Origin: Methylobacterium gnaphalii
GTDB taxonomy: Bacteria; Pseudomonadota; Alphaproteobacteria; Rhizobiales; Beijerinckiaceae
Reading direction: 5' to 3'
Assembly: GCF_007992215.1 (NCBI RefSeq)
Contig: NZ_BJZV01000006.1
Coordinates: forward strand, 62,001 to 126,000
Length of the DNA stretch: 64,000 bases
The translations under genes and the position numbers were made by a program. Below, in pieces: positions 32,199 to 41,941 of the stretch (positions within the stretch are counted from its first letter, which is position 1; every line of letters begins with the position of its first letter). The notes beneath the pieces are model-generated. The model was given only the letters and a program-made list of their open reading frames with translations, was not told the origin of the DNA and searched no databases.

Positions 32199-32627
32199 AT
32201 GTTGGAGGAATTCAAGAAGTTCGCTCTGCGCGGCAACGTCGTCGATCTCGCGGTCGGCGTGATCATCGGCGCGGCCTTCGGCGCCATCGTCACCTCGCTC
32301 GTACAGGACATCATCATGCCGATCATCGGCGCGGTGACAGGCGGCCTCGACTTCTCGAACTACTATGTCGCGCTGTCATCCAAGGTAACTCCGGGCCTCG
32401 CCTACGGCGATGCCAAGAAGCTCGGTGCGGTGGTCGGCTACGGCCAGTTCCTGACGCTCGCGGTGAATTTCACGATCGTCGCCTTCGTGCTCTTCATGGT
32501 GATCCGGGCCATGAACAAGCTGAAGACCAAGGAGGAGGCCAAGCCCGAGGCCGTTGCCGAGGTCCCGGCCGATGTGAAGCTGCTCACGGAAATCCGCGAC
32601 ATCCTCGCCGTGCGCACAAAGATTTGA
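32199..32627 (+). CDS. mscL: Large-conductance mechanosensitive channel
   Basis: 142 residues, pentameric osmotic-shock channel. [31 protein letters not shown] is the conserved N-helix and TM1 with the Gly-rich gate. [25 protein letters not shown] is TM2, and the C-terminal helix ([11 protein letters not shown]) closes it. Length and motifs are standard. Ends 11 bases from the convergent NepR-like gene. Confidence 0.97.
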
Positions 32628-33729: not shown

Positions 33730-34476
33730 TCAGGCTTCCTTTGGCATCGCCGATTGGATGAACCGGTCGGAGCCGAGGTCTTCCTCGTCGTAGCCGAGCA
33801 GCTCGGCGAGGCGGCCACGGGCGCGGCTGACGCGGCTCTTCACCGTGCCGACCTTGCATCCCATGATCGTCGCGGCCTCCTCGTAGGACACGCCTTCGGC
33901 ACCCACGAGCACCAGCGCCTCGCGCTGGTCCGGCGGCAGCTTGGCCAGCGCTGACTGGAGGTCCTCTACGTCGAGCCGGTCTCCCTGGTGCGGGGCGGTG
34001 GCGAGGCGCGCCGCGTAGGAACCATCCTGGTCCTCGACCTCGCGCACGCGTTTGCGGTGGTCCGAGTAGAAGATGTTGCGAAGGATCGTGAATAGCCAGG
34101 CATTCAGGTTGGTGCCGGGCTGGAAGCGGGCGCGGTGCTGCCAGCCCTTCATCAGCGTGTCCTGGACGAGGTCGTCCGAACGAGCCGGGTTCGAGGTCAG
34201 AGAGAGCGCGAAGGCGCGAAGTGAGGGCACGGCCGCGAGCAGGCCGTTGCGGAAATCGGGATCGACGCGCTCGCCCTGCGCCTTCAGCGCGGCCTCGAGC
34301 TTCGTGATGAGATCGGCGAAGCGGGCGGTGACCGCATCCGGTGTTTCGATCGACTCGTAGACGGTGCGCAGCTGGTCGCCGAGATGCGTACGGATGCTCG
34401 CAGAGAGGTTCGGACGCCCTTCGGCGCCGTCCTCCGCGGGACGATCGAGGGTATCGGCGGTCTCGTTGCGGCTCAT
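33730..34476 (-). CDS. EcfG-type sigma factor with fused N-terminal NepR-like domain
   Basis: 248 residues, ~65 longer than usual EcfG proteins. Residues 28-43 (IRTHLGDQLRTVYES) and 47-64 (DAVTARFADLITKLEAAL) follow the two-helix pattern of the anti-sigma factor NepR. Residues ~75-140 are sigma region 2 (LLAAVPSLRAFALSL, DDLVQDTLMKGW, LNAWLFTILRNIFYSDHRK) and ~168-225 region 4 (LPPDQREALVLVGAEGVSYEEAA, GTVKSRVSRARGRL). EcfG drives the alphaproteobacterial general stress response. The two parts are in one frame with no internal stop. An ATG inside the linker is not seen, so a separate sigma product would need a non-ATG start. Confidence 0.85.
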   Translation of the reverse strand: MSRNETADTLDRPAEDGAEGRPNLSASIRTHLGDQLRTVYESIETPDAVTARFADLITKLEAALKAQGERVDPDFRNGLLAAVPSLRAFALSLTSNPARSDDLVQDTLMKGWQHRARFQPGTNLNAWLFTILRNIFYSDHRKRVREVEDQDGSYAARLATAPHQGDRLDVEDLQSALAKLPPDQREALVLVGAEGVSYEEAATIMGCKVGTVKSRVSRARGRLAELLGYDEEDLGSDRFIQSAMPKEA

Positions 34477-34657
34477 GATGCGATAAGCGTGCTTCGATCG
34501 GTGAATGTCGGGCGGCCCCAGCACCATCCCTACGCAGACGCCGTGACTGTATCGTATCGCGAAGGCGGGCGCACCCCGAGGAGCGAGCATGCCGGCCCGG
34601 CTATGATCGCTATCAGACCTTTTTCCGACCGGCGTGTCCCGCCCGCATCCGGATGGC

Positions 34658-35476
34658 TCAATTGCAGCCGCAGGGCAGGGCAACCTGGACGGGGCGGCGT
34701 CCCGGCCGCAGCAGACGCACGGCGCCGTCCTTGAACGCCACAGTGTCGCCGCGGGCAAGCTCGGTCCAGGTCTCATCGCGGGTGAGCGCCCGGGTCGCGA
34801 TCATGGTGACCACGTCGGTCTCGGTCGTCTCCTGCGCGAAGTCGACGCGCCAATCCTCGTCGACCAGCGTTGCGGTGCCGAATGGCGCGCAGCGGGTGAG
34901 GTAGCAAAGCCGTTTGCCGCAATGGGCGTAGAGTACCCGGCTGTCCGAGAGGAGCATGTTGAAGACGCCGAGCGTGCCCAGGTCGCGGCACAGCTCGGCC
35001 ACGAAGGTGTCGAGTTGCGCCGGTCGAGGCGGCTTCGGCCAGCGCTCCTGGAGCTGCGACATGATCCAGCAGAAGGCGTGCTCGCTGTCCGTCGAACCGA
35101 CCGGCTCGAAGCGGCCGAGGGGCCGCCGCTTGATGCCCTTGAGCTGGCCGTTATGCGCGAAAGTCCAGCGCCGCCCCCACAGCTCGCGGCTGAAGGGATG
35201 TGTGTTCTCCAAGCTGACCCGGCCGCGATTGGCCTTGCGGACGTGCGCGACAACGATGCGGCTCTTGATCGCGTAGCGGCGCAGAAGCTTGGCGAGTTCC
35301 GACTGCGCGCTCGGATCGGGATCGTGGAACGAGCGGCAGCCGCGGCCGCCCTCGTAGAAGGTGATGCCCCAGCCGTCGGCATGCGGCCCGGTCTCGCCGC
35401 CGCGCTTGGCTAGGCCGGCGAAGGAGAAGCGGATGTCAGTGGGCACATTGGCGCTCATGCCGAGCAGTTCGCACAT
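34658..35476 (-). CDS. Class II glutamine amidotransferase (YafJ-like)
   Basis: 272 residues. Cys2 right after the initiator Met (MCELLGMSANVPTD) is the N-terminal nucleophile. GPHADGWGITFYEG, VVAHVRKANRGRVSLENTHPF, WTFAHNGQLKG and GSTDSEHAF are the family's glutamine-binding and active-site blocks. It hydrolyses glutamine to ammonia, possibly for an unknown acceptor; no synthase domain is attached. Cytoplasmic. It lies upstream of the sigma factor on the same strand with a 181-base gap. Confidence 0.92.
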   Translation of the reverse strand: MCELLGMSANVPTDIRFSFAGLAKRGGETGPHADGWGITFYEGGRGCRSFHDPDPSAQSELAKLLRRYAIKSRIVVAHVRKANRGRVSLENTHPFSRELWGRRWTFAHNGQLKGIKRRPLGRFEPVGSTDSEHAFCWIMSQLQERWPKPPRPAQLDTFVAELCRDLGTLGVFNMLLSDSRVLYAHCGKRLCYLTRCAPFGTATLVDEDWRVDFAQETTETDVVTMIATRALTRDETWTELARGDTVAFKDGAVRLLRPGRRPVQVALPCGCN

Positions 35477-35577: not shown

Positions 35578-36696
35578 TCACCGCGCGGGAAACAGCCTGC
35601 GCGCCAGAGGGATCAGTCCGACAGCCATGCCGGCGACGCCGACGAGCGTCAGGGCGTCGGTCAGCGTAATCTTGAACGAGCCGCGCATCGCGGGCGTCAC
35701 GAACCAGTAGACGGCGAGGACCTGCACCCCTAGCGCCAGTGCCGCCACGACACGGGTGCGGTACTCGCCGGGCTTCAGGGTCACCGCTGCCGCGAGGAGG
35801 ACGACCACTCCGGCGAAGGCGGCGAGCACCAGCCCCTCGCCGACGAGGCGCGCGCCGTACCAGAGTGTGGCCTCGGGCGAGCCGAGCACCAGCGCCTGCA
35901 CGAGATGCATCACCGCCCATATCGCGAGCAGAACGGCGAGTGGTGTGAGCCGATCGAGCCGGCGTCGCGAGGGACCGACATCCGGCGGGGCAACCAGGAT
36001 CGCCGCGCTCAGCGCCAGCGCGCTCCAGCCCGCGAGCAGCACCAACCCTGCGAGGCTTGAATGAAACCGTGCGAACACCGCCATGACCAGATCGGCTGCC
36101 GCGAGCGTCCCACAGACGATGTGCAGCCCGAGGCCGAGGATGGCGCGTCCGTCGTCGATGCGGCCAGCCTTGCCCCAGGGTTCGCCGCCGCGCCGCGCGA
36201 ACATCATAGATAGGCCGATCCAGATCAAGAACACGAGGGTGAGGCGCAGGATCAGGAACGGCGTGGTAAACCAGATCGCGGCGAGCGGCGTCTCAGGCGG
36301 GGCTCCAGTTGCCCAGGGATAGAGATCTGGCAGGACAGCCAGGATTGGCAGCGCGAGCAGCGCCGCAACCGGCATCAGGCCGAGCAACCAGCGCAGGGTC
36401 TCAAGCAGGGCCGTCTCAGGCTGGGGCCGCCAGGCATCGGCCCGCTCGACCATGATCGCCACAGGAAGCGCCCCCACGGGCAAGGCGAGCAGGCAGAGCC
36501 AGGCCGGCAAGTAGGAGACTGCTAGCCGATGCCAGCCGCCCAGCAGCAGGGCGAGGCCGAAGGCCACCGCGCCGATGCCGAGCCCGGCGGCGCTGCGCCT
36601 GGCCGGGGCGAGCAGGAAGGCGCGCGCGGTTCGGGGCAGCGCGACCTCCTCCCTACGGCCGGCCTCGTCCCGCGATGGGTCCCACGGGAGGCTCAT
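35578..36696 (-). CDS. ActF-like subunit of Alternative Complex III
   Basis: 372 residues, about ten membrane helices. Landmarks of ActF: WFTTPFLILRLTLVFLIWIGLSMMF (about 140-165), FHSSLAGLVLLAGWSALALSA, and LLAIWAVMHLVQALVLGSPEATLWYGARL (matches the FWAYIxFSQFxLxWxxNxPEExxWY pattern with several changes). ActF is a membrane arm of the quinol:cytochrome c oxidoreductase ACIII. The gene is coupled to the ActCD gene by an ATGA overlap. No ActA, ActB or ActE gene is in the window. The N-terminus is Arg-rich and not conserved. Confidence 0.72.
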   Translation of the reverse strand: MSLPWDPSRDEAGRREEVALPRTARAFLLAPARRSAAGLGIGAVAFGLALLLGGWHRLAVSYLPAWLCLLALPVGALPVAIMVERADAWRPQPETALLETLRWLLGLMPVAALLALPILAVLPDLYPWATGAPPETPLAAIWFTTPFLILRLTLVFLIWIGLSMMFARRGGEPWGKAGRIDDGRAILGLGLHIVCGTLAAADLVMAVFARFHSSLAGLVLLAGWSALALSAAILVAPPDVGPSRRRLDRLTPLAVLLAIWAVMHLVQALVLGSPEATLWYGARLVGEGLVLAAFAGVVVLLAAAVTLKPGEYRTRVVAALALGVQVLAVYWFVTPAMRGSFKITLTDALTLVGVAGMAVGLIPLARRLFPAR

Positions 36697-38570
36697 CAGG
36701 CGACTTTCCGGATCGTCAGCGGCCGGCCGTCCGCCGCGGGCAGAGCCATCAGCCGCTGCTCGATGCGCTCGGCCTCGCCTGGCTCGCCGCCGACCCGCGC
36801 CGTCAGCACGAAGCTACTGCGTCCGGCCTGCCAGACATCAGCATCCCTGGGCTGACGCCGGCCCCGCGCCGCAAGGAGCGCCGCCAAAGCCGCAAGTGTG
36901 CCTGCGGTCAGCGCTGCCATCAGACTCGGAAGGACGAGGGAGGGCCAGGCGCCCCAGGGTGCAGCGCCGGCCGCCAGCGGGATTGCAGTGAGGCAGACCG
37001 CCAGAACGCCGCATCCGCCGAGAAGCGCGCCGGCCAGTGCGGTGAGTCGAATCGGGGTGACGGCCGGTCGCAAGACCTCGAGAGCCTCCGGGATCGGCAC
37101 CGGGCCCAGCGCGTCGAGACGCAGGCTGCGGTCGCGTGCCCGTAGTACACTGGCCGCGGCGGCGAGCGTCCTGGCGGAGGCGAACTCGGCCGCAACAAAC
37201 CGGACTCCGGCAGAGGACAAAATCCCTGGGTCCGGGATTTTCGGTGGCGGGGCGGTGAGTGCTCCCACTGGATTGTGAGCGAGGACAAGCGCACGCATCT
37301 GCGCGATCGAGACGATCGGCAGCGTCTGCAGAACGAGGATCAGTCCGGTCAAGAACAGGGCGACAGAGCCCGCGAGAGCGGCGATGCCTGCGATATCGGC
37401 TGCGGGCGGGACCAGTGCGGACGCGTCCCGGAGCGTGACGGCGAGACCCATCGCGCGGTCGGCATAGGCGCCGACGGCAACGAGCGTGCCGACCACGGCG
37501 ACGGCCAGACCCGAGCGGCGCAAGCGCGGCAGCCAGAAGAGCTGTGGCGGCAGCAACCCGCAGGCGACCACCGTCCAAAAGGCCGGGGCGAGGTCGCCGT
37601 GGAAGCCCCGCGCCACGGTGTCCCGCGCCGCCGCCTCGCCATGCAGCAGTACCGCCAGGATGGTGGTAGCGTGGCAATACAGGCTGGAGAGGCCGAGGAC
37701 GAGGATCAGCCTGGCCAAGATGTCGAGATGGCGGCGGGTAATCAGGCCGCAGAGCCCGTGCGTCGCGCGGATCACAACGACCGCGGCGGCGCTCGCTCCA
37801 ACCCCGGAGAGCACGGCGTCGACGAGAAAGGTGACCGGCAGGAGCGTGTCCTGCCGTCCCGGCGCCGCCGTGGCTGCCTGCATGACCGAGGCGCCTACCT
37901 GCAACGCGATGGCGAGCAGGGCACCGAGCAGCGCCGTAGAGCGATGCGCCTCCTCCCAGAGTCGCCATTGCAGGGCCGAGCCGCGCCAGCCACCCGCCAG
38001 CCAGCCGTAGAACCGGGAGGCGCCAGGTTCGTGCAGGATCGCGAGATCGGGCAACAGGCCGATGAGCCAATGGCTGGCGCAGACCACGACGAGGCTAGCG
38101 GTGCCAGCCACCTGCCAGGAGGCGGCCGATCCGAAGGGCGGAGACAGGCCGATACCGTCCATCCACGGCGCCGCCGGTGCACCGGCGCAGAACCCAGCGG
38201 CGATGGCGGCGAGCAGCGCCACCGTCTCGGTGATGCGGCCCACCGCACAGCGCCACTCGACACCTGCAAGCAGCAGTACGGCCGAGACCAGCAGACTTCC
38301 TTCCGCGATTCCGATCCAGCCCTCGTAGCTCGCCACGGCGACGAGCGCGCCCTGCTCGGCCGACCTCGGGACGAGGGCGCAGACAGCCGCCAGCGCCCCG
38401 CAGGCCCCGGCTGCGATCAGCCAGCGTCGCCGCCCGGCCCGCGGCGCGAGCACGATGTCCGTGACGATGCGGGCGACGCTCTCGACACTCTCGCCCGGCG
38501 CGACGATCCGCTCGCCATAGAGACTCTCGGGCAGGGGCGTGAGAACCTTGGGGAACGCTTTCGCCGTCAC
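36696..38570 (-). CDS. ActC-ActD fusion (NrfD/PsrC-like plus DUF3341), ACIII-like
   Basis: 624 residues. The first ~430 follow NrfD/PsrC-type ActC: IAEGSLLVSAVLLLAGVEWR, ASHWLIGLLPDLAILHE, FYGWLAGGWRGSALQWRLWEEAH, LLPVTFLVDAVLSGVGA. Residues ~450-624 are a DUF3341 ActD (GVRFVAAEFASARTLAAAASVLRA, two membrane helices, SSFVLTARVGGEPGEAERIEQRL). In working ACIII these are separate subunits; here they are one chain. The HSIVS-type loop of ActC is not recognisable (GASVMQAAT at the place). The gene heads a two-gene unit with ActF. Confidence 0.72.
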   Translation of the reverse strand: MTAKAFPKVLTPLPESLYGERIVAPGESVESVARIVTDIVLAPRAGRRRWLIAAGACGALAAVCALVPRSAEQGALVAVASYEGWIGIAEGSLLVSAVLLLAGVEWRCAVGRITETVALLAAIAAGFCAGAPAAPWMDGIGLSPPFGSAASWQVAGTASLVVVCASHWLIGLLPDLAILHEPGASRFYGWLAGGWRGSALQWRLWEEAHRSTALLGALLAIALQVGASVMQAATAAPGRQDTLLPVTFLVDAVLSGVGASAAAVVVIRATHGLCGLITRRHLDILARLILVLGLSSLYCHATTILAVLLHGEAAARDTVARGFHGDLAPAFWTVVACGLLPPQLFWLPRLRRSGLAVAVVGTLVAVGAYADRAMGLAVTLRDASALVPPAADIAGIAALAGSVALFLTGLILVLQTLPIVSIAQMRALVLAHNPVGALTAPPPKIPDPGILSSAGVRFVAAEFASARTLAAAASVLRARDRSLRLDALGPVPIPEALEVLRPAVTPIRLTALAGALLGGCGVLAVCLTAIPLAAGAAPWGAWPSLVLPSLMAALTAGTLAALAALLAARGRRQPRDADVWQAGRSSFVLTARVGGEPGEAERIEQRLMALPAADGRPLTIRKVA

Positions 38571-39340: not shown

Positions 39341-41941
39341 ATGGAGCGTGATCCGATCCTGTTCGGTTGGCGCTCGGCGCCGCGGGCGCACGCCCTGGCC
39401 GTGGCGCTCGGCGTCGGGCTCGGTACCCCGCTCGCCCTGTTCGCGCTGCTCTGCCTGCGCGACCTGATCGACCTTCTCGTACCGGGAGCCTCCGAGCCGC
39501 GGCGCTTCCTGGCGCTGGCCCTGCCGCTTCCCGGCCATCCACCGGCAGTGCTTCCGATCGCCTCCGGCTTGCCCATGAGCGGGCATGGGCTGCTGCTCGC
39601 GGCGTTGCTCGGGCTCGCCGTCGCGGCTCTGGCCTTCGCCGGGCTCGGCTGGCTGGTTGCCCGCGTCTGCTTCTCCGCCCAGGCTCGGGCAGCATCGCGC
39701 CTGCGCGCCACGGCCGTCGATGCGATCCTGCGCGCTCCGCCTGGCGCCCGCGAGGACGTACGCGCCTTGCCCGGCCTGACAGGGTCGGCGCTCGCCGGAT
39801 TGCCTGCTGCCGGCATCCTGGTGCCGGCTATGACGCTCGCCGCCGTGCTGCTGGCGCTCGCCACCGCTGCGCTCGTTGCGGCGCGCCTCGTCCCGGCGAT
39901 GGCGATCGGCCTCCTTGCCGTCGGCCTCGCCCGCGCTCTTCAGATCCGACGCGGACTCGAACGCACCAGCCTGCGTCAGCAGGAACAGGCGGCGGTGGAG
40001 GCCGGGCTCGGTGACCTGATCCTGCGGATGCCCGCCGTGCGCGCGCACGGCTCGGCGATGTTCGAGCGGCGTCGGCTCGGCCTGCGCGCTCGCGCCACGC
40101 ACGGCACCCTGGCCCGGGCCGAGGCCGCGCTGGCCTACGCACGCGCGCCGGCTCTCGCCCTGGTCGTGCTGCTCCCCGCGATCTTCGTGGCGACGGCCCT
40201 CTGGCACGGCCCGGGCGCGCCTGAGGGGGCCGAGCCCACCATGCCTGGCGCGCTCGCTGCGGCGGCGGCCGCCTTCGTGCTCGCAGCGGCCATGATCGCG
40301 GCGTTCGTGCGGCTGTGGTTCCTCAGGATGGAAACCGCGCCGACCTATCAGAGACTGGCGCAAGCCCTCGACGGACTCGCCGACAAGCGGACCGCCCCGC
40401 ATCGCGCAGCCGCCTTCCCGACCTCGGGCCCACTGATCGCCACCGATGCAGGTGCCTACGATCCGGCGAGCGGTGAGCGGCTCACAGGCCTCGACGCGGT
40501 GCTGCCGATGCCAGCCCATATCGCCATTGTCGGCGAGCGCGGCAGCGGGGTGCAGGCGCTCGCAGCGCTGCTCGCCGGCCAGATCGAGCCGAGCGTCGGC
40601 GCGATCACCTATGGTGGGGTCGACTTGCGCAGCCTCGACCCGGTCGAGCGCGCCCACCGCATCGCCTTCGCTGGCTCGGAGGCGATCCTGATCGAGGGCA
40701 CGCTGAAGCAGAACCTGCTCTACGGCGCGCGGATCGACGAGCGTGAGGCGCTCGGCGAACAGGGCCGCATCGCGCTCCTCAAGCTCTCGGGTCTCGATGC
40801 CCTGATCTACGCGCGGGGCCTGGAGGGCACCATCGACCCCGACGCCGAACCGGCAACGGCGCAGGCCATCGTCGCAGCCCGCGCGGCGGTGCGCGAGGCT
40901 CTCGCCGCGCAGGGCATGGCCCGGCTCGTCGAGCCGTTCGATCCGGCCCTCTACAACCATCAGGCGACGGTAGGCGAGAACATCCTGTTCGGTGAGGCGG
41001 TGGGCGCCACCTTCTCGCAGGAGCGGCTTGCCGGCCACCCCTACCTGCGTGCGGTGCTGGAGGCGGAAGGCCTGACCCGCAGCTTCATCGAGATGGGTCT
41101 CGCCATCGCACGCTCCACTGTGGAGATCTTTTCCGACCTGCCCGACGACCACCCGCTTTTCGACGGCTTCTCGCTGTTTCCGGCGCGCGAGCGCGGCTTC
41201 TTCGAAGATCTGATCGCCCGCCAGCCCGACGGGCGCAGTTGGCGCCGCGGCCCCGCCGGTGCACGCGACCGCGAGCGGCTGATCGGCCTCGCCCTGCGCT
41301 ACAGCGAGACGCGTCACCGCTTCGGACTGATCGATCCGGAGCTAGAGGAGCGGATCGTCGGCGCCCGTGCGTCCTTCGCGCGGCTAATGCCCCCGAAATT
41401 CAAGGACAAGATCGATCTCTACGATCCTGCCCGCGTCACTGCCGCGGCGAGCCTCGAGGAGAACGTGCTGTTCGGCCGCATTACCCAGGGCGAGGCGGGT
41501 GCCGAGCAGCGCGTGCGCGCCCTCATTCGCCAGGTGCTCGCCGACCAGGGGTTGGAGCCCGCCGTCTACCGGCTCGGGCTCGCCAGCCGCGTTGCGTCGA
41601 GCGGTCCAGGCACGGCTGTGGCTCGGCGGCAGGGCCTCACCGAGGGCGGCATCGGCCCGCGCGACCGGGTCGCCATCGACCTCGTGCGCTGCCTCGTACG
41701 CCGGCCCGACATCCTGGTGGTTGGCCTGCTGCCGGACGAGCGAAAGTCGGAGGAGATCGCCGCGCGGATCATGCGCCTGCGCATGATCCGGCAGAATCTA
41801 GGCCTGATTGTTTGCCTGCCCGACGCCGAGACCCTGAGCCGCCTGCCCCCCTTCGACGCGGTGCTCACCGTCGCGCGCAACGCCGCGACGCTGGCGAGCA
41901 GCAGCCCCGCTGACCAACCTGCGCCTTCGCACGCAGCGTAA
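39341..41941 (+). CDS. ABC exporter-like protein with degenerate nucleotide-binding domain
   Basis: 866 residues. The N-terminal ~340 are an ABC-exporter membrane domain (GVGLGTPLALFALLCLRDLIDLL, LGLAVAALAFAGLGWLVARV, AFVLAAAMIAAFVRLWFL). The following NBD has a Walker A written GERGSGVQAL: the invariant Lys-Ser/Thr is missing. The Q-loop-like motif occurs three times (LKQNLLYGA, TVGENILFGEA, SLEENVLFGRI at about 461, 549 and 709), with a ~230-residue insertion between copies. No LSGGQ signature is visible, while RDRVAIDLVRCLVRRPDILVV recalls the Walker B region. Likely a non-hydrolysing relative. The start could lie slightly elsewhere. Confidence 0.75.
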   Translation: MERDPILFGWRSAPRAHALAVALGVGLGTPLALFALLCLRDLIDLLVPGASEPRRFLALALPLPGHPPAVLPIASGLPMSGHGLLLAALLGLAVAALAFAGLGWLVARVCFSAQARAASRLRATAVDAILRAPPGAREDVRALPGLTGSALAGLPAAGILVPAMTLAAVLLALATAALVAARLVPAMAIGLLAVGLARALQIRRGLERTSLRQQEQAAVEAGLGDLILRMPAVRAHGSAMFERRRLGLRARATHGTLARAEAALAYARAPALALVVLLPAIFVATALWHGPGAPEGAEPTMPGALAAAAAAFVLAAAMIAAFVRLWFLRMETAPTYQRLAQALDGLADKRTAPHRAAAFPTSGPLIATDAGAYDPASGERLTGLDAVLPMPAHIAIVGERGSGVQALAALLAGQIEPSVGAITYGGVDLRSLDPVERAHRIAFAGSEAILIEGTLKQNLLYGARIDEREALGEQGRIALLKLSGLDALIYARGLEGTIDPDAEPATAQAIVAARAAVREALAAQGMARLVEPFDPALYNHQATVGENILFGEAVGATFSQERLAGHPYLRAVLEAEGLTRSFIEMGLAIARSTVEIFSDLPDDHPLFDGFSLFPARERGFFEDLIARQPDGRSWRRGPAGARDRERLIGLALRYSETRHRFGLIDPELEERIVGARASFARLMPPKFKDKIDLYDPARVTAAASLEENVLFGRITQGEAGAEQRVRALIRQVLADQGLEPAVYRLGLASRVASSGPGTAVARRQGLTEGGIGPRDRVAIDLVRCLVRRPDILVVGLLPDERKSEEIAARIMRLRMIRQNLGLIVCLPDAETLSRLPPFDAVLTVARNAATLASSSPADQPAPSHAA

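Follow-up and report, generated by a model that had tools for sequence, protein, structure and literature searches.

Alternative Complex III (ACIII, ActABCDEF) is known from the reference structures of Rhodothermus marinus (6f0k), Roseiflexus (6lod), Chloroflexus (8k9e) and Flavobacterium (6btm). In regard to its membrane part, the subunits ActC and ActF were argued to contain proton half-channels (PMC5928083). A quinone site is ascribed to all NrfD-like subunits analysed except ActF (PMC8076601). PsrC, DmsC, NrfD and QrcD, members of the NrfD/PsrC-like fold family, serve as anchors of redox enzymes and have such a site, while ActF, the known NrfD-like subunit without it, adjoins the quinone-binding ActC in ACIII. 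The coupling between quinol oxidation and ion movement is unsettled for ACIII as for the wider NrfD family, and the authors of a study on a relative, QrcABCD, favour a redox loop in which nothing is pumped (PMC13059093).

The gene pair described here, actCD and actF, lies in a window (the whole stretch of DNA analysed) of 64,000 nucleotides from Methylobacterium gnaphalii, and its products share the fold family of these subunits. Like ACIII, the pair has the ActC, ActD and ActF folds and the corresponding gene order, and it descends from a complete ACIII-cox cluster. Unlike ACIII, its locus is devoid of actA, actB, actE and cox genes, ActC and ActD form one chain, the quinol pocket is erased and the cytoplasmic loops of ActF are newly invariant. 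The pair also differs from the redox-enzyme anchors in having neither the quinone site nor a redox partner in the operon, and from the ActC-ActF arrangement of ACIII in that both of its subunits are without the site.

The gene pair and its surroundings

The features of the locus, in positions of the window, are as follows:

34658-35476, minus strand: class-II glutamine amidotransferase gene (Pfam GATase_4, E 5e-105), flanking the pair
35578-36696, minus strand: actF, second NrfD-like subunit, 372 aa, ATG start
36139-36198, minus strand: ActF cytoplasmic loop 2, invariant, aa 167-186, ARRGGEPWGKAGRIDDGRA
36385-36447, minus strand: ActF cytoplasmic loop 1, invariant, aa 84-104, ERADAWRPQPETALLETLR
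36696-38570, minus strand: actCD, 624 aa, GTG start, intact reading frame, with an ActC (NrfD-like) domain at about aa 19-433 and an ActD (former DUF3341) domain at aa 458-623
38124-38189, minus strand: shortened ActC TMH3-TMH4 segment, the expected site of the His139 quinol loop, aa 128-149
39341-41941, plus strand: gene of a divergent ABC-like protein, 866 aa, flanking the pair

The stop codon of actCD and the start codon of actF overlap by one base. The preliminary description had read ActC and ActD as fused in one protein, and the intact frame indeed matches both in phmmer and Foldseek, and ActD in Pfam. The Pfam family ActD (PF11821) covers aa 458-605 (E 6e-7) with 29.6 bits, or 31.9 bits in a second search, above the gathering cut-off of 25.7, and phmmer aligned aa 75-428 with the ActC chains of solved ACIII structures (8k9e_C, E 3e-39; 6f0k_C, E 4e-35) and aa 458-574 with 6lod_D. 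The Pfam family NrfD (PF03916) found no match in ActCD; within the genome, it matches the canonical ActC only. A monomeric AlphaFold2 model of ActCD, obtained from 15 orthologues (pTM 0.81, with a low-confidence stretch at aa 131-146), was matched by Foldseek to ActC chains (E 3e-16, TM-score 0.77 by target length) and, in a separate match, to ActD chains (TM 0.77 by target length). Both phmmer and Foldseek thus place the protein in the NrfD/PsrC fold with two four-helix bundles, as in ActC.

ActF gave no relevant match in Pfam, NCBIfam or PDB sequences, those of ActF structures included. It was identified by synteny and homology to the ActF of complete loci, by the conservation of its loops, and by a monomeric AlphaFold2 model of modest confidence (pLDDT 71) that Foldseek matched to ActF chains (E 2e-7, TM 0.72 by query length). 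Comparison of the two models with ACIII structures, as suggested in the preliminary description, hence finds the membrane subunits ActC, ActD and ActF with the right folds.

Both flanking genes are syntenic anchors, present in complete as well as in reduced loci; the glutamine amidotransferase is used as an anchor only, with no claim of a functional partnership. The ABC-like neighbour appears degenerate (ABC_tran 20.7 bits; an apparent Walker A, GERGSGVQALA, without the lysine). It is unlikely to be an obligate partner of the pair, since 109 of the 111 genomes of the genus have its gene (E<=1e-60), with or without actCDF. The surroundings also contain an EcfG-type sigma factor gene (33730-34776, minus strand) whose N-terminal extension resembles NepR (16 bits in Pfam, under the cut-off), and NepR/sigma (anti-sigma/sigma) fusions are already known for Methylobacteriaceae (PMC4814048). 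An MscL mechanosensitive channel gene is found at 32199-32627 (plus strand, Pfam E 7e-45). Control by the EcfG general-stress sigma factor was discarded, as the 400 bases preceding actCD contain no GAAC-N16/17-[CG]GTT site in any of 15 reduced loci. A phage origin was likewise rejected, viral contigs having given no relative.

Complete clusters and the reduced locus

In sister species, the fused actCD is part of a complete cluster, actA-actB-actCD-actE-actF-coxB-coxA-coxC, located mostly at the site of the window, between the ABC-like gene and the genes for the glutamine amidotransferase and EcfG. Such clusters are the direct relatives of the pair (e.g. L035, L036, L037 and L049, and at the shared site also L042 and L135); the complete clusters L096-L101 are without the flanking anchor genes. 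In the complete loci examined, the CXXCH-bearing actE lies between actCD and actF. In a search of the order (397 genomes) and the class (385), full-length fused ActCD turned up in this genus alone, and no record of a fused ActCD or of an orphan ActCDF was found in open-access papers. As judged from these arrangements, the fusion is older than the reduction: since it occurs in complete clusters of sister species it is not a sign of decay, and since it belongs to a complete complex it predates the loss of subunits.

The reduced form, with actCD and actF only, is present in 21 of the 111 genomes of the genus, including that of the window. Named members are Methylorubrum thiocyanatum, M. rhodesianum, M. 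aminovorans, M. rhodinum, M. suomiense, M. salsuginis, M. podarium and M. zatmanii, and Methylobacterium brachythecii and M. haplocladii; start codons of the relatives' reading frames were set by rule. Across the 21 genomes, the identity of ActF to that of the window is 59-88%, compared to 54% or less in all other genomes of the genus. In each of the 21 loci actCD adjoins actF, and actA, actB, actE and the cox genes are gone, with no relics detected by tblastn; the preliminary description had noted the absence of ActA, ActB and ActE nearby, and the cox genes can now be added. Genes were lost upstream of, between and downstream of actCD and actF, and all the genes lost encode cofactor-bearing subunits, except coxC, which codes for another part of the oxidase that disappeared. 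Neither the iron-sulfur/molybdo-like ActB nor the c-type cytochromes ActA and ActE are therefore encoded alongside the pair.

The ActCD proteins of reduced loci form one clade (SH-aLRT 99), and so do the neighbouring genes of these loci (support 100). A single reduction in the ancestor of one Methylobacterium/Methylorubrum clade, followed by vertical inheritance, explains both trees most simply. At different sites, a solitary ActF-like gene was observed in genome G035 (L132, 9024-9950) and a pair of ActE-like and ActF-like genes in G080 (L133, 8552-9994), in both cases without ActB, ActCD or cox; here an ACIII cluster may have been partly reduced a second time, independently.

A complete, unfused ACIII (actA, actB, actC, actD, actE, actF and coxB-coxA-coxC) is located on contig C4 of the window's genome; its ActB has 966 aa, and its ActC and ActD are encoded by two genes. 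Identity between this ActC and the window's ActCD is only about 31%, and for that reason the window's unit is not a simple duplicate. Duplication of a local complete ACIII, which the preliminary description had named as the case that would overturn its reading, is rejected: the other set of the genome is distant and unfused, and it includes a C, D and F of its own.

The genome search for ActB and ActE that the preliminary description had proposed thus found them on C4, yet a canonical ActB elsewhere in the genome is a feature of only 12 of the 21 reduced-locus genomes, the window's among them. The remaining nine whole genomes, those of M. brachythecii and M. rhodinum among them, have no ActB at E below 1e-20, and fused-type ActB was found in no reduced-locus genome. 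The 12 genomes would leave room for the pair to serve the canonical ACIII, or an unlinked ActB, in an accessory or assembly role. We consider this very improbable, given that the canonical cluster already encodes a C, D and F, that the unit is present under similar constraint in genomes without ActB, and that degeneration affected the side turned towards ActB.

Quinol pocket, selection and shifted conservation

The quinol-pocket residues and the roles of ion-path residues are taken from R. marinus (PMC5928083). W82, I86, P136, H139, L166 and D169 are kept in all 21 complete-locus ActCD proteins, whereas a residue alignment shows Trp82 and His139 lost in all 20 full-length reduced ones. The loop between TMH3 and TMH4 is wholly deleted in 16 of these 20 proteins and mostly deleted in three, which belong to the window's group, confirming the missing conserved ActC loop of the preliminary description. 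M. haplocladii (G076) takes an intermediate position: part of the loop is present, H139 is replaced by Pro, and D169 is kept. Positions adjacent to the deletion (e.g. D169 in some rows) depend on the alignment, whereas the loss of H139 and of the loop does not. The P-side pocket of ActC (Trp82, His139, Asp169) is in this sense absent from the reduced proteins. Asp253 of the pocket is Met in all 21 complete fused-type ActCD proteins, so the complete Methylobacterium enzyme, too, differs from that of R. marinus at this site.

Since all reduced-locus proteins have lost the pocket, the quinone handling suggested in the preliminary description finds no support. Quinone could conceivably still be handled at an altered site, for example by a quinone sensor, as all NrfD-like proteins described, except ActF, are predicted quinone binders (PMC8076601), and as G076 retains Asp169 and part of the loop. 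Such a role appears improbable nonetheless, considering the general loss of His139 and Trp82, with the loop absent or, in the window's group, largely deleted, and the position equivalent to His139 being essential in PsrC and DmsC mutants (PMC8076601).

In regard to selection, omega was estimated with the codon model GY+F3X4 in IQ-TREE, on small sets of 3-6 sequences. For ActCD it was 0.091-0.169 in five reduced subsets and 0.055 and 0.075 in two complete subsets, meaning that ActCD evolves somewhat faster in reduced loci, with omega about doubled. For ActF, the values were 0.049-0.079 in reduced and 0.091 and 0.076 in complete subsets. Fixing omega at 1, with kappa at its fitted value, worsened the fit of the reduced sets by 119-355 lnL units. 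By these codon comparisons, ActCD and ActF are intact and under purifying selection in the reduced clade. A decaying relic without function would agree with the disappearance of every catalytic partner, with the missing active site and with the raised omega of ActCD, but it is hardly credible where reading frames are intact in 21 species, neutrality is strongly rejected, the excision is clean and ActF is better conserved than in complete loci. The word remnant, used in the preliminary description, is hence right historically and misleading functionally, with omega of 0.05-0.17 and 21 species with intact genes.

Furthermore, conservation was redistributed within the proteins. Topology was assigned from positive charges and by homology to ACIII, in which the two termini face the cytoplasm (PMC5928083). 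Mean pairwise identity in ActF cytoplasmic loops is 0.91 in reduced and 0.48 in complete loci, where these loops are variable and the quinol pocket is kept; in periplasmic loops it is 0.57 and 0.66, and in TM segments 0.77 and 0.62, respectively. When the loop mask was shifted circularly, the excess of the cytoplasmic loops was reached in only 3 of 337 cases. Loop 1 of ActF (mean identity 98% in the 21 reduced loci, 49% in complete ones) and loop 2 (95% and 44%) are the clearest instances. ActCD exhibits a weaker shift in the same direction, with cytoplasmic values of 0.67 in reduced vs 0.63 in complete loci and periplasmic values of 0.59 vs 0.75. On the assigned topology, the conserved surface, formerly periplasmic, now lies on the cytoplasmic side, and the change is greatest in ActF. 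Together with selection, this re-patterning indicates that an ACIII-derived membrane unit without redox subunits was repurposed, as the preliminary description had supposed, and a repurposed module stands well ahead of the relic and accessory-subunit readings.

The remaining ion path and the role of the pair

The proposed proton path survives only in part. R114, R119 and D191 of the cytoplasmic half-channel of ActC are kept in all 20 reduced proteins, and R308 of ActF (R283 in the window) in all reduced proteins. On the other hand, Y323 of ActC is His and E301 of ActF is Ala in all reduced proteins, and the window's sub-clade has lost the acids E326 and E338 of the periplasmic half-channel of ActC and has Ala at D358 of ActF. 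With several ion-path residues changed, a continuous proton path is not assured.

Strong selection in 21 species, after the loss of the redox partners and of the pocket, suggests a new job in the membrane. We think it rather probable that the pair is the ion-translocation half of ACIII, kept by selection without its redox function and re-wired to the cytoplasm as a redox-independent conduit, probably for protons. ActCD and ActF would keep a dimer of the ActC-ActF type in the membrane. Its cytoplasmic face, made of ActF loops 1-4 and the ActD domain, may have exchanged the redox arm for a soluble partner or ligand, whose binding could gate or drive the remaining polar path, resulting in an ion conduit controlled from the cytoplasm. 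Somewhat more tentatively, at close to even chances, the NrfD-fold ActC-ActF pair can be regarded as a redox-independent, cytoplasmically gated membrane device, be it an ion conduit or a receptor.

It is also possible, with a lower but appreciable probability, that the dimer conducts nothing and serves as a sensor or scaffold, anchoring or signalling to a cytoplasmic protein via the invariant ActF loops. Conservation peaks in these soluble loops and not in the membrane, the window's sub-clade has lost several of the half-channel acids, and with the path residues changed a function in structure or sensing alone agrees with the data just as well. Against it speak the retained ActC and ActF residues named above and the TM segments of ActF, which are better conserved than in complete loci. 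Between the two, we infer an ion conduit and favour it moderately over the sensor or scaffold.

The reduced unit is carried by culturable species of Methylorubrum and Methylobacterium, in which the membrane half of ACIII is naturally isolated. Ion movement by the pair would support the view that NrfD-like subunits contain a genuine transport module; if it moves none, the pair would represent a respiratory scaffold turned to another use.
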